Assembly: GCA_946497035.1 (NCBI GenBank)
Contig: CAMMIW010000001.1
Coordinates: forward strand, 1-64,000
Reading direction: 5' to 3'
DNA length: 64,000 nucleotides
DNA from: an uncultured Eubacteriaceae bacterium
Lineage (GTDB): Bacteria; Bacillota; Clostridia; Lachnospirales; CAG-274
Position 1 is the first letter of the stretch, and each line of letters starts with the position of its first letter. Shown here piece after piece: positions 54,361-58,291 of this stretch. A model generated the notes under the pieces. The model ran no database searches. It saw only the letters and a list, made by a program, of their open reading frames with translations, and was not told the DNA's origin. The position numbers and the translations under genes were made by a program.

Positions 54361-55302
54361 ATGAGATATATATCAGATTTAAAAATAGATGAAACGGTAG
54401 TTGAACATTATCTTTGCAAAAAAAAGCAAACTTTAAAATCTCGCGCTGGTAAAAACTATCTTTCTTTGCTTCTTCAAGATAAAACAGGCACTATAAATGC
54501 AAAAGTTTGGGAGCTTAATAACCAAATACAAAGCTTTGAAGAAAACGATTTTATAAAAATAGACGGTACGGTTTTATCATATCAAAATGAACCACAACTA
54601 ACAATAAGAAAAATAAGACGTAGCCAAGAAGGAGAATATAACCCTATGGATTATATACCTTCTACAGATAAAAATATAGAAGAGCTTTACAACAAAATAA
54701 CAAAAATTATATATAGCTTAGAAAATGTTTATATAAAAACTCTTTTAGAAAATATTTATATAAAAAATGACGAGCTAAGAGAAAGATTTAAAATACACTC
54801 TGCCGCAAAAACTATGCATCATAGCTATATGGGTGGTCTTTTAGAACATAGCTTATCTATATGCGAAATATGTGATTTTTTATCTAAACATTATGAATAT
54901 GTAAATAGAGATTTACTTTTAGCCTCTGCTCTTTTACACGATGTTGGCAAAATGTTTGAGCTATCTCCTTTCCCAGATAACGATTATACAGATGACGGCC
55001 AGCTTTTAGGGCATATAATAATTGGCACAGAGCTTATAACAAGAGAAAGTAACAAAATAGAAAATTTTCCTCATCAGCTACAATCTCTTTTAAAACATAG
55101 TGTGCTTTCTCATCACGGTGAATACGAATTTGGCTCTCCTAAAAGACCAAAAACAATAGAAGCTTTTATCTTACATTGTGCAGATGAACTAGATGCAAAA
55201 ATAAAAATGTATGAAGATGCTATTTTTTCTGATAATACAACAGGTAACTGGGTTGGTTATCATAAAATGTTAGCTAGAAATATTAGAAAGTCTAATTTTT
55301 AA
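54361..55302 (+). CDS. yhaM: 3'-5' exoribonuclease YhaM (OB fold plus HD domain)
   Basis: 313 aa. The N-terminal OB fold (about 15-95, with KNYLSLLLQDKTGTINAKVW) is followed by an HD domain with HHSYMGGLLEHSLSI, LLHDVGK and LSHHGEYEFGSP, the metal ligands of YhaM. It degrades RNA and single-stranded DNA from the 3' end. AATTTTGGAGG precedes ATG. The stop overlaps the next start (TAATG), so the membrane nuclease gene is coupled to it. Confidence 0.92.
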   Translation: MRYISDLKIDETVVEHYLCKKKQTLKSRAGKNYLSLLLQDKTGTINAKVWELNNQIQSFEENDFIKIDGTVLSYQNEPQLTIRKIRRSQEGEYNPMDYIPSTDKNIEELYNKITKIIYSLENVYIKTLLENIYIKNDELRERFKIHSAAKTMHHSYMGGLLEHSLSICEICDFLSKHYEYVNRDLLLASALLHDVGKMFELSPFPDNDYTDDGQLLGHIIIGTELITRESNKIENFPHQLQSLLKHSVLSHHGEYEFGSPKRPKTIEAFILHCADELDAKIKMYEDAIFSDNTTGNWVGYHKMLARNIRKSNF

Positions 55303-55676
55303 TGTATAATAAAGATGAAAAAATATCTGCTAGTGAGATAAACAAATATTGCTATTGTCAATATAGCTGGTATTATGAAAGGCTATATGGTAAAAAACAC
55401 ATTAGAGAAAGCTACAAAAATCCTGAAAAATTTAAATATAAAACCAATAAATCTAAAGCTAAAAAAACAAACAATAAAACTACAAATGCTAAAAATAATA
55501 AAGACGACTTTAAATATAAAACTATAGATAATTTTAAAAGAGGCGTAAAATTTCACGACGATTTTTTAGAGCAACGAAGAAAAAGATTAATTATTAAATT
55601 TATAATATTATTTATAATATTATCATTTCTTACTATTTTATTTTTATGGGTATTAAAATTATGCAATATATTATAA
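55302..55676 (+). CDS. Cas4/RecB-like membrane nuclease, N-terminal part
   Basis: 124 aa. The start ISASEINKYCYCQYSWYYERLYG matches the first helix of Cas4/PD-(D/E)xK nucleases, including an iron-sulfur Cys. A Lys/Asn-rich linker follows (about 45-75). Then GVKFHDDF near residue 82 corresponds to the motif with the active-site His, and a membrane helix occupies about 96-118. It lacks the catalytic Asp, Glu and Lys, which are all in the next ORF. The ATG overlaps the yhaM stop and has no Shine-Dalgarno. Either it works as a two-subunit nuclease with the next gene, or both are one gene broken at the T5 run 55641-55645. Confidence 0.65.
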   Translation: MYNKDEKISASEINKYCYCQYSWYYERLYGKKHIRESYKNPEKFKYKTNKSKAKKTNNKTTNAKNNKDDFKYKTIDNFKRGVKFHDDFLEQRRKRLIIKFIILFIILSFLTILFLWVLKLCNIL

Positions 55677-56215
55677 CATTATTAATAATATTTTTTGTTT
55701 TATTATTTTTAGTTATTATAAACCGTAAACCTATAAAAAAGCTAAAATCTAAAAGTTTAGCTCCTTTTGGTTATAGGCTTTTTTATACCGATCAAAATAC
55801 AAGAACTAAAAGAAACAACGTTATATATAAAAGAATACTTTATTCTCAAAAATATAATATACAAGGCAAGCCCGATTTTATATATAAAAAATTTAAAACT
55901 TGCTATATTATAGAACTTAAAAGTGGATCTATAAAAGATGATCCTATGCCTCATACAGGAGATTTAATGCAACTTGTAGCTTATTTTCTCATAATTGAAG
56001 ATTTATTTGGATATAAAGTAAAAAAAGGAAAGCTTATATATAGCGATTATTGTTTTGTTGTTAGAAACACTAGGCGTTTAAGAAAAACCGTTTTATCTAT
56101 ATTAGAAGATATGCGTTATATGTTAAAAACTGGTAAAGGAGAAGCAAATTGTAGTTTTGTTCATTGCAGATATTGTATGTGTAAAAACACAGTTTGTGAA
56201 TTTTATAATATTTAA
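55646..56215 (+). CDS. Cas4/RecB-like membrane nuclease, catalytic part
   Basis: 189 aa. A membrane helix (about 5-26) precedes a RecB/Cas4 core: IQGKPDFIYK (Asp), CYIIELKSGS (Glu-x-Lys), the QLVAYFLIIE motif (Gln...Tyr), and a C-terminal Cys cluster CSFVHCRYCMCKNTVC that could hold the other ligands of a [4Fe-4S] cluster. Together with the preceding protein this covers the full Cas4 motif order His-Asp-ExK-QxxxY-Cys3, with two membrane helices between His and Asp. No cas1, cas2 or CRISPR array is nearby. The start overlaps the previous ORF by 31 bases and could be at either of two ATG codons (55646, 55661). Confidence 0.7.
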   Translation: MGIKIMQYIITLLIIFFVLLFLVIINRKPIKKLKSKSLAPFGYRLFYTDQNTRTKRNNVIYKRILYSQKYNIQGKPDFIYKKFKTCYIIELKSGSIKDDPMPHTGDLMQLVAYFLIIEDLFGYKVKKGKLIYSDYCFVVRNTRRLRKTVLSILEDMRYMLKTGKGEANCSFVHCRYCMCKNTVCEFYNI

Positions 56216-56226
56216 GGTGATCTTTT

Positions 56227-56373
56227 ATGGATAATAAAAATAAAAATTTTGATAAAAAAAATATAGAAAAAGTTTTAAACATAACAAATGAAAAGCTTTT
56301 AGCTAAAGCTTTGCAACAATATTTAAAATCAGATAAAAATTATATAAAAAAAGGTAACAAAAATGATGATTAA
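56227..56373 (+). CDS. Small acidic-basic protein, 48 aa
   Basis: An ORF with a good site (AAGGTGATCTTTT then ATG) between the nuclease and rlmD. It overlaps rlmD by a few bases. The product begins MDNKNKNFDKKNIEKVLNIT and is predicted helical (NEKLLAKALQQYLKS). No family recognised. The tight spacing on both sides suggests it is translated as part of the operon. Confidence 0.55.
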   Translation: MDNKNKNFDKKNIEKVLNITNEKLLAKALQQYLKSDKNYIKKGNKNDD

Positions 56374-57715
56374 AAAAAATGATTATTTTGATATAAATAT
56401 AACCGATATAGGTGTAAATGGCGAAGGTATTGGCAAAATAGATAATTTTACTATTTTTGTTGAAGGAGCTTTACCTAACGAAAAGGTAAATATAAAAATT
56501 ATAAAAGTTAAAAAAAATTATGGTTATGGTAAACTTATAAAAGTCTTAATACCTTCTCCTTATAGAAAAGAGCCTATTTGCAAATATTTTAATAAATGTG
56601 GTGGTTGTAACCTACTTCATTTAGATTATAATCAACAACTTAATATAAAATCAAAATTTATACAATCTAATTTAAAAAAAATAGCTAAAATAGAAGATAT
56701 AAAAGTGCCTGTTGCTATTGGAATGGATAATCCTTTTAATTATAGGAATAAAGCTAGCTTTCCTATAAATTTTACAGATAAAATTAATATAGGCTTTTAT
56801 AAACCTAGATCTCATAATATAATAAATATAGATAATTGTATTATACAAAATCCGATAAATAATATAATTATAGAAAAAACAAGAGAATTTATAAAAGAAA
56901 GTAACATTTCTATATATGATGAAAATAGCGGTAAAGGCGATTTAAGACATATTGTAACAAGGGTAGCTAATAAAACTAATGAAATTTTAATATGCTTAGT
57001 TATAAATAATAATAAATTTTTATATAAAGATTTGCTCATAAAAAAATTTAAAAATATACCTAATTTAGATAGCATTGTTATAAACTATAACACAAATAAA
57101 AACAACGTTATTTTAGGAGATAAAATAGAAAATATTTTTGGTAAAGGATATATTATAGATTATATTAAAGACTTAAAGTTTAATATTTCACCCTTATCTT
57201 TTTATCAAGTTAACCCTATTCAAACAGAGCTTTTATATGAAAAAGCCTTACAATTTTGTAATTTAACAGGTGATGAAATAGTTTTTGATGCTTATTGTGG
57301 TATAGGCACTATATCTTTATTTTTAGCTAAAAATTGTAAAAAAGTATATGGTATAGAAATTGTGCCAGATGCTATAAAAAATGCTAAAGAAAATGCTAAA
57401 ATTAACAATATAACAAATGCTCAATTTTTTGTAGGTAAATCTGAAGATGTTATACCAAAACTTATTTTTGAAGAAAATATATATCCAGATGTTATCGTGG
57501 TAGACCCACCTAGAAAAGGCTGTGATATAGCTCTTTTAGATGCCATAGCTAAAACAAATATAAAAAAATTAGTATATGTATCTTGTGATAATGCCACATT
57601 AGCTAGAGATATAAACTATTTATCTAATTTTGGCTTTAAATTAGATAAAATACAACCTGTTGATATGTTTTGTATGACAACACATATAGAATGTGTAGCA
57701 TTAATAACTAAATAA
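56363..57715 (+). CDS. rlmD: 23S rRNA (uracil-C5)-methyltransferase, RlmD/RumA type
   Basis: 450 aa. N-terminal TRAM domain (about 5-60), a Cys set for a [4Fe-4S] cluster (CKYFNKCGGCNLLHLDY), then the SAM domain: FDAYCGIGTISLFLA, VDPPRKGCD and the catalytic-Cys motif VYVSCDNATLARD, ending HIECVALI. Family members methylate U1939 or U747 of 23S rRNA; which one is not decidable by eye. It starts ATGATG just inside the end of the small ORF. Confidence 0.9.
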   Translation: MMIKKNDYFDINITDIGVNGEGIGKIDNFTIFVEGALPNEKVNIKIIKVKKNYGYGKLIKVLIPSPYRKEPICKYFNKCGGCNLLHLDYNQQLNIKSKFIQSNLKKIAKIEDIKVPVAIGMDNPFNYRNKASFPINFTDKINIGFYKPRSHNIINIDNCIIQNPINNIIIEKTREFIKESNISIYDENSGKGDLRHIVTRVANKTNEILICLVINNNKFLYKDLLIKKFKNIPNLDSIVINYNTNKNNVILGDKIENIFGKGYIIDYIKDLKFNISPLSFYQVNPIQTELLYEKALQFCNLTGDEIVFDAYCGIGTISLFLAKNCKKVYGIEIVPDAIKNAKENAKINNITNAQFFVGKSEDVIPKLIFEENIYPDVIVVDPPRKGCDIALLDAIAKTNIKKLVYVSCDNATLARDINYLSNFGFKLDKIQPVDMFCMTTHIECVALITK

Positions 57716-57736: not shown

Positions 57737-58291
57737 ATGAATAATAAAGTAAAAAATACTTTAAAAAATATAGGTGTTAATTTTCCTATAGATTATAATG
57801 TTACAAACTTAGTTGATATTTTAATATGTGATAATATAAAAAAATATAAAAAAGGGCTAAAAACTAGTTTAAATATATATAAAAATTTTAAATTTGATAC
57901 ACTAATATTTAAAATAGATTTTGATTATAATCAAACAGAGGAAGAAAATTTAGAAAATACTATAAATATTTTAAATAGATTTATAGATATATGTAAACTT
58001 AAAAAACCTACTTTTATGAAATATACAAATTATGATAATACAATAGAAGGTATATTATTTTGTTGGGATTTGTCTAAAGAAAAAATTAAAATAAAAAATC
58101 TTATAAAAGAAATTTTATTTTTAAATAATGATGGCTTTATTGAGCTATTTTCATCCGTATTTTTTTTAGATACTAACAAACATATTTTGTTTAATTTTTA
58201 TAGTGATAAAATAATAAAGATTTTATATACCAATAATAAAGATTTAAACAAAATTTATAAAAAATATAAAAAAATAATTATAACAACATAG
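57737..58291 (+). CDS. DUF3885-like hypothetical protein
   Basis: 184 aa, soluble, Lys/Asn/Ile-rich. The C-terminal stretch (HILFNFYSDKIIKILY, then LNKIYKKYKKIII) resembles the end of DUF3885 proteins, where an aspartate-rich strand is followed by a Tyr-Lys-Tyr helix; the match is by eye and weak. AAAGGAATGGC lies upstream. It sits 21 bases after rlmD and 11 before the TtcA-like gene, within one operon. Function unknown. Confidence 0.5.
   Translation: MNNKVKNTLKNIGVNFPIDYNVTNLVDILICDNIKKYKKGLKTSLNIYKNFKFDTLIFKIDFDYNQTEEENLENTINILNRFIDICKLKKPTFMKYTNYDNTIEGILFCWDLSKEKIKIKNLIKEILFLNNDGFIELFSSVFFLDTNKHILFNFYSDKIIKILYTNNKDLNKIYKKYKKIIITT

Follow-up and report, generated by a model that had tools for sequence, protein, structure and literature searches.

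A Cas4 nuclease that is divided into two chains, held at the membrane and free of CRISPR is well supported by the evidence collected here. It is encoded by two overlapping genes (half A and half B) in the 64,000-nucleotide stretch of DNA that was analysed (the window), and comparative sequence analysis indicates that this two-ORF split is ancient and fixed in a lineage of gut and heat-loving clostridia. We propose that the two products probably form a Fe-S-stapled solo-Cas4 exonuclease of the inner membrane, which would trim or clear ssDNA ends independently of CRISPR.

Table 1. Positions of the two nuclease halves, their predicted functional elements and the adjoining genes in the window.
Feature	Position	Strand	Description	Basis
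Half A (ORF A)	55302..55676	+	124 aa; from N- to C-terminus: Cas4 Cys helix, linker rich in Lys/Asn, motif I (RG..FH), membrane helix	
Half B (ORF B)	55646..56215	+	membrane helix, PD-(D/E)XK core, Cys cluster	
Cys19 of half A	55356..55358	+	predicted first Fe-S ligand	conservation
His85 of half A	55554..55556	+	RecB motif I	conservation
Membrane helix of half A	55596..55664	+	~residues 99-121	hydropathy, charge rule
Membrane helix of half B	55661..55720	+	helix 2-25 in structure model	hydropathy, charge rule
Asp77 of half B	55874..55876	+	GKPD, motif II	conservation
Glu90-x-Lys92 of half B	55913..55921	+	ELKSG, motif III	conservation
Gln109-x3-Tyr113 of half B	55970..55984	+	QxxxY	conservation
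C174-x2-C177-x-C179-x4-C184 of half B	56165..56197	+		conservation
yhaM	54361..55302	+	HD + OB, 3'-5' exoribonuclease family; gene 5' of half A, same operon	
48-aa ORF	56227..56373	+	travels with yhaM-rlmD, not with A/B	
rlmD	56363..57715	+	23S rRNA U1939 methyltransferase; downstream gene	

The original prediction placed a Cas4/RecB-like nuclease in two ORFs, and both were found where it put them, carrying the motifs ascribed to each. Half A starts inside the yhaM stop codon (TAATG). Half B is 189 aa long if read from the ATG at 55646 and 184 aa from the ATG at 55661, giving an overlap with half A of 31 or 16 nt, respectively; the ATG at 55661 is probably the true start, as it aligns with the starts in close relatives. 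In half A, the linker that joins the Cys helix to the His helix (55430-55530) shows a Lys/Asn-rich expansion with repeats of the FKYKT type. This expansion is common to the window and locus L021 (5543-5926), and other members of the genus are without it.

Half B scored 69.8 bits against the TIGR00372 cas4 model (cut-off 65) and 24.3 bits against PDDEXK_1 (cut-off 22), while PF01930 had zero matches anywhere in the genome. On the Cas4d model PDLC02034, half A covers positions 2-49 (a weak match, correctly placed) and half B covers positions 49-178; since they tile a single Cas4d profile, the two together correspond to one Cas4. Cas4d models were also matched by 12 of 17 half A homologues. Profile-profile comparison related half B to unsplit Bacillota Cas4s (E=2e-17) and half A to the N-terminal Cys helix of the same proteins (E=0.0012), the family match of half A spanning only ~45 residues. 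A joint alignment showed that, relative to an ordinary Cas4, the break and both membrane helices lie after the His helix and before the first core strand. In a tree with unsplit Cas4s, the half B sequences formed one group with 100/100 support, set apart by a long branch. The identification as a Cas4/RecB-like nuclease was upheld by the curated score together with invariant motifs and a RecB-like predicted fold.

A practical annotation error arises at this locus. Half B (55646-56215) lies above the 'equivalog' cut-off of TIGR00372, so pipelines can annotate it as a CRISPR-associated Cas4 even where Cas1 is absent, as in this genome, and likewise in other genomes without CRISPR.

The active-site residues are distributed between the two proteins. 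C19 and H85 of half A were invariant in 77 of 77 sequences, and D77, E90, K92, Q109, Y113, C174, C177 and C184 of half B in 79 of 79, a few rows in these counts being one genome fetched twice. The Asp, ExK and Cys residues on which the original prediction relied are thus conserved in relatives. Its C-terminal Cys cluster holds for C174, C177 and C184 but not for C179, which is present in 72 of 79 sequences. Because C179 is not universal, the predicted cluster ligands are C19 of half A and C174, C177 and C184 of half B. The universal cysteines number exactly four, one N-terminal in half A and three C-terminal in half B, which is the Cas4 pattern (PMC3466216, PMC4176176) spread over two proteins. 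Every Cys-to-Ala change in Sso0001 resulted in insoluble protein (PMC3466216). Cleavage by Pcal_0546 was not abolished by loss of the cluster (PMC4176176), so the cluster may be purely structural. An alternative reading is that half B alone is the enzyme and that half A, rather than being a structural half, serves as its accessory anchor or regulator. This would agree with the RecB-like core predicted for half B and with its passing the cas4 cut-off, yet the N-terminal Cys and the motif-I His are missing from half B and invariant in half A, and half A is never missing where half B occurs; we consider this reading improbable.

Structure prediction was performed on the A+B chain of a relative (L061), in which both halves lie in one frame and the single stop was read through. 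The model adopted a confident RecB/Cas4 fold (pLDDT 86.5, pTM 0.81), with type I-C Cas4, MGME1, Dna2, Sso0001 and Pcal_0546 as best PDB matches; the TM-scores of these matches were modest (<=0.5), partly due to the inserted membrane helices. Half B of the window was modelled alone and also showed a RecB-like core, such that the core implied by the original prediction is present in both predicted models. The Cys tail of half B was disordered when modelled alone (pLDDT 47, 38) and reached 72-79 in the A+B model, the two models differing in sequence and in alignment depth (63 versus 12 rows). This ordering of the tail with half A present fits a staple across the chains. In the A+B alignment the cores were placed correctly and the membrane helices were overlaid, making the modelled placement of the helices unreliable.

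Hydropathy analysis identified a hydrophobic C-terminal helix preceded by basic residues in nearly every half A, and a hydrophobic N-terminal helix followed by basic residues in nearly every half B. These observations bear out the two membrane helices that the original prediction put between the His motif and the Asp motif, with one in each protein, and extend the predicted membrane anchoring to nearly all relatives. Half A is predicted to have its N-terminus inside and its C-terminus outside, and half B its N-terminus outside and its core inside; the helices and their flanking basic residues would therefore leave both cores on the cytoplasmic side. At six loci (L059, L064, L065, L074, L076 and L079), mostly from termite-gut Defluviitaleaceae, half A has its helix and half B has none, a natural anchor-loss variant.

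The two halves occur together. Half B was detected in 19 of 61 related genomes and half A in exactly those 19. A scan of named genomes returned 69 loci, several of them on complete chromosomes, with half A followed by half B in all. Carriers include Anaerotignum, Tyzzerella, Defluviitalea, Epulopiscium, Niameybacter, Sporanaerobium, Clostridium sp. ASF356 and others, as well as Thermoanaerobacter and Thermoanaerobacterium. The search for single-ORF orthologues suggested with the original prediction was carried out order-wide in 392 genomes, and among its 66 strong matches (>=183 bits) none was a fused form, the ORFs (172-228 aa) being too short for one. The next matches scored <=34 bits and, a few fragments excepted, resembled ordinary Cas4s.

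In the window the two ORFs overlap in different frames, as would be seen if a single Cas4 gene had become a frameshifted pseudogene, contained a sequencing error or used a programmed frameshift. However, all 69 relatives are split, complete isolate genomes included, and the frames and overlaps vary between species: half B is offset from half A by +1 in 35 loci, by +2 in 29 and by 0 in 5, and the same-frame pairs retain 1-2 stop codons. The varying offset and the retained stops argue against a programmed frameshift. Both halves are also under purifying selection, with dN/dS of ~0.25 and ~0.22 (rough values, as dS is near saturation), and the probability that any of these frameshift explanations applies is negligible. 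Two loci carry a damaged half A, reflecting either draft error or decay: at L078 (5727-5998; a draft of T. saccharolyticum NTOU1) it is broken in two, and at L010 (reverse strand) it is cut short ahead of the helix.

Distances between A/B sequences followed those of yhaM and rlmD; half B correlated with these two genes (Spearman 0.60 and 0.63, respectively) as closely as they did with each other (0.54), which fits vertical descent with loss. The pair thus shows both features by which a solo-Cas4 is recognised, location outside cas loci and mainly vertical inheritance.

The gene order yhaM-nuclease-48-aa ORF-rlmD was examined across the 69 loci. yhaM lies 5' of A/B in 59 and rlmD lies 3' in 53, whereas the 48-aa ORF persists without A/B, so that only part of the predicted order is characteristic of the nuclease. 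Among 14 inspected relatives that lack A/B, rlmD follows directly behind yhaM in most, indicating that half A and half B are gained or lost together. The 48-aa ORF was rejected as a third subunit, since its retention in the A/B-less genome G014 places it outside the module; it ends in a conserved 'LAKAI..LL..DK' helix (56227-56373 in the window; 2461-2617 in L128). A DUF3885 protein (57737-58291; 34.3 bits, cut-off 23) lies right behind rlmD and is kept in 5 of 6 close relatives fetched. The predicted coupling to yhaM holds for Lachnospirales-type relatives but fails in Thermoanaerobacter and Thermoanaerobacterium, where A/B are not at yhaM and adjoin a polysaccharide deacetylase, making yhaM a frequent but not an obligate partner. 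A conserved lipoprotein neighbour in Thermoanaerobacter was considered as a functional clue and proved to be this deacetylase, which is uninformative.

The stable position between yhaM and rlmD, seen in 53 of 69 loci, would suit a nuclease that works on RNA with YhaM and RlmD. This context is nevertheless missing in Thermoanaerobacterales, yhaM-rlmD persists without A/B, and the cited Cas4 enzymes were characterised on DNA; an RNA role is accordingly very unlikely. Work on Bacillus pumilus places YhaM and YhaN in its LexA/SOS list (PMC3896406). Near the operon studied here there was no SOS-box-like site, matches occurring at chance level, and control of this operon through a LexA/SOS box was discarded.

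No Cas1 was found in this genome, in agreement with the absence of CRISPR noted in the original prediction. Among the related genomes, Cas1 was present in 6 of 19 A/B carriers versus 20 of 42 non-carriers (p=0.28), and a link to CRISPR adaptation (CAS-Cas4) was therefore dismissed, there being no Cas1 in the own genome and no association among relatives.

A role in DNA uptake, also raised by the original prediction, found poor support. Action on DNA entering through the competence channel would suit the membrane position, the presence of ComEC in this genome and the natural competence of Thermoanaerobacterium (PMC4518999), which carries the pair at L078 and L085. Against this, ComEC is near-universal and hence uninformative, and the T2SSF pseudopilus protein had no match in this 99.7% complete genome and is missing in 6 other A/B carriers. 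T2SSF showed no association with the pair (12 of 19 carriers versus 30 of 42 non-carriers, p=0.56). The competence link was rejected on these grounds and is, in our judgement, quite unlikely. Compensation of A/B loss by AddB was likewise set aside, AddB being near-universal and uninformative.

The main rival is a two-chain nuclease for defence, which would sit at the membrane and cut entering phage or plasmid DNA. Membrane anchoring and a patchy presence with clean absence are consistent with such a role, and Hudaiberdiev et al. (PMC5704561) suggested that solo-Cas4 may have uncharacterised functions in defence or repair. However, no defence genes adjoin the pair, which resides in a housekeeping operon and is inherited vertically. 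Phage and viral collections contained no A/B relatives, and those on plasmids were remote (on B. subtilis plasmids, only a Cas4 of 28% identity), findings that also led us to reject a mobile-element origin. Defence is thus a possibility that we rate as rather unlikely. The housekeeping operon, vertical descent and the listing of yhaM/yhaN under LexA/SOS in B. pumilus favour DNA-end processing or clearance, and the most likely cellular role would be the CRISPR-independent trimming or clearing of ssDNA ends at the membrane. Two observations weaken the case for a repair role: Thermoanaerobacterales do not have yhaM next to A/B, and the surroundings of the operon lack an SOS-box-like site.

Taken together, these results suggest a model in which half A and half B are subunits of one Cas4/RecB-type nuclease on the cytoplasmic side of the cell membrane. 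Half A would provide the motif-I His, one N-terminal Cys and the anchor at its C-terminus; half B would supply the catalytic Asp/Glu/Lys and QxxxY, three further Cys and the anchor at its N-terminus. Once brought together, the two proteins would share one Fe-S cluster bound by all four Cys, which would staple half A to half B and complete the active site. Neither chain alone would be stable and active, and the enzyme would work only once both have met at the membrane. By analogy with characterised Cas4 proteins, we infer physical pairing of half A with half B around a Fe-S cluster, and a metal-dependent ssDNA exonuclease activity would be expected. The nuclease would serve a dispensable genome-maintenance function, vertically inherited and occasionally lost. 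More tentatively, the pair could be an obligate Cas4 heterodimer that shares its Fe-S cluster across two membrane proteins and acts as an assembly-gated, CRISPR-independent device for DNA surveillance or clearance. If true, this would be a rare case of a Fe-S cluster and a nuclease active site common to two membrane proteins and naturally switched by their assembly. The defined A/B clade offers a handle on solo-Cas4 function, consisting of two genes, two anchors and the residues that each chain would have to lend the other, and genetically tractable carriers exist (Thermoanaerobacterium).

The pair resembles CRISPR Cas4 (TIGR00372; Pcal_0546, 4r5q; Sso0001, 4ic1; type I-C, 8d3l) in its RecB fold, H-D-ExK-QxxxY residues and four Cys. 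Whereas CRISPR Cas4 is a single soluble chain encoded with cas1/cas2, A/B are two membrane-anchored chains without cas genes, and so depart from a single soluble polypeptide that is usual for Cas4 but not strictly defining. The AddB, Dna2, MGME1 and ACE1 nucleases, neighbours in fold searches, share the PD-(D/E)XK fold, several with a Fe-S staple; unlike A/B, they are single chains or helicase fusions without a break at motif I. A split or membrane-anchored Cas4 did not turn up in text searches of a library with few subscription papers. The closest known system is the solo-Cas4 of Thermoanaerobacterales, a CRISPR-independent Cas4 as here, which is monophyletic and present in most members of that order (Hudaiberdiev et al. 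2017, PMC5704561); the Thermoanaerobacter and Thermoanaerobacterium A/B pairs would probably belong to this published group. The main text of that study describes neither a split nor membrane helices, whereas here the nuclease is an anchored gene pair whose range extends to Lachnospirales-type clostridia. Solo-Cas4 in Thermoanaerobacterales was therefore already known, and, within the literature searched, it is the two-protein split and the membrane anchors that appear to be new.
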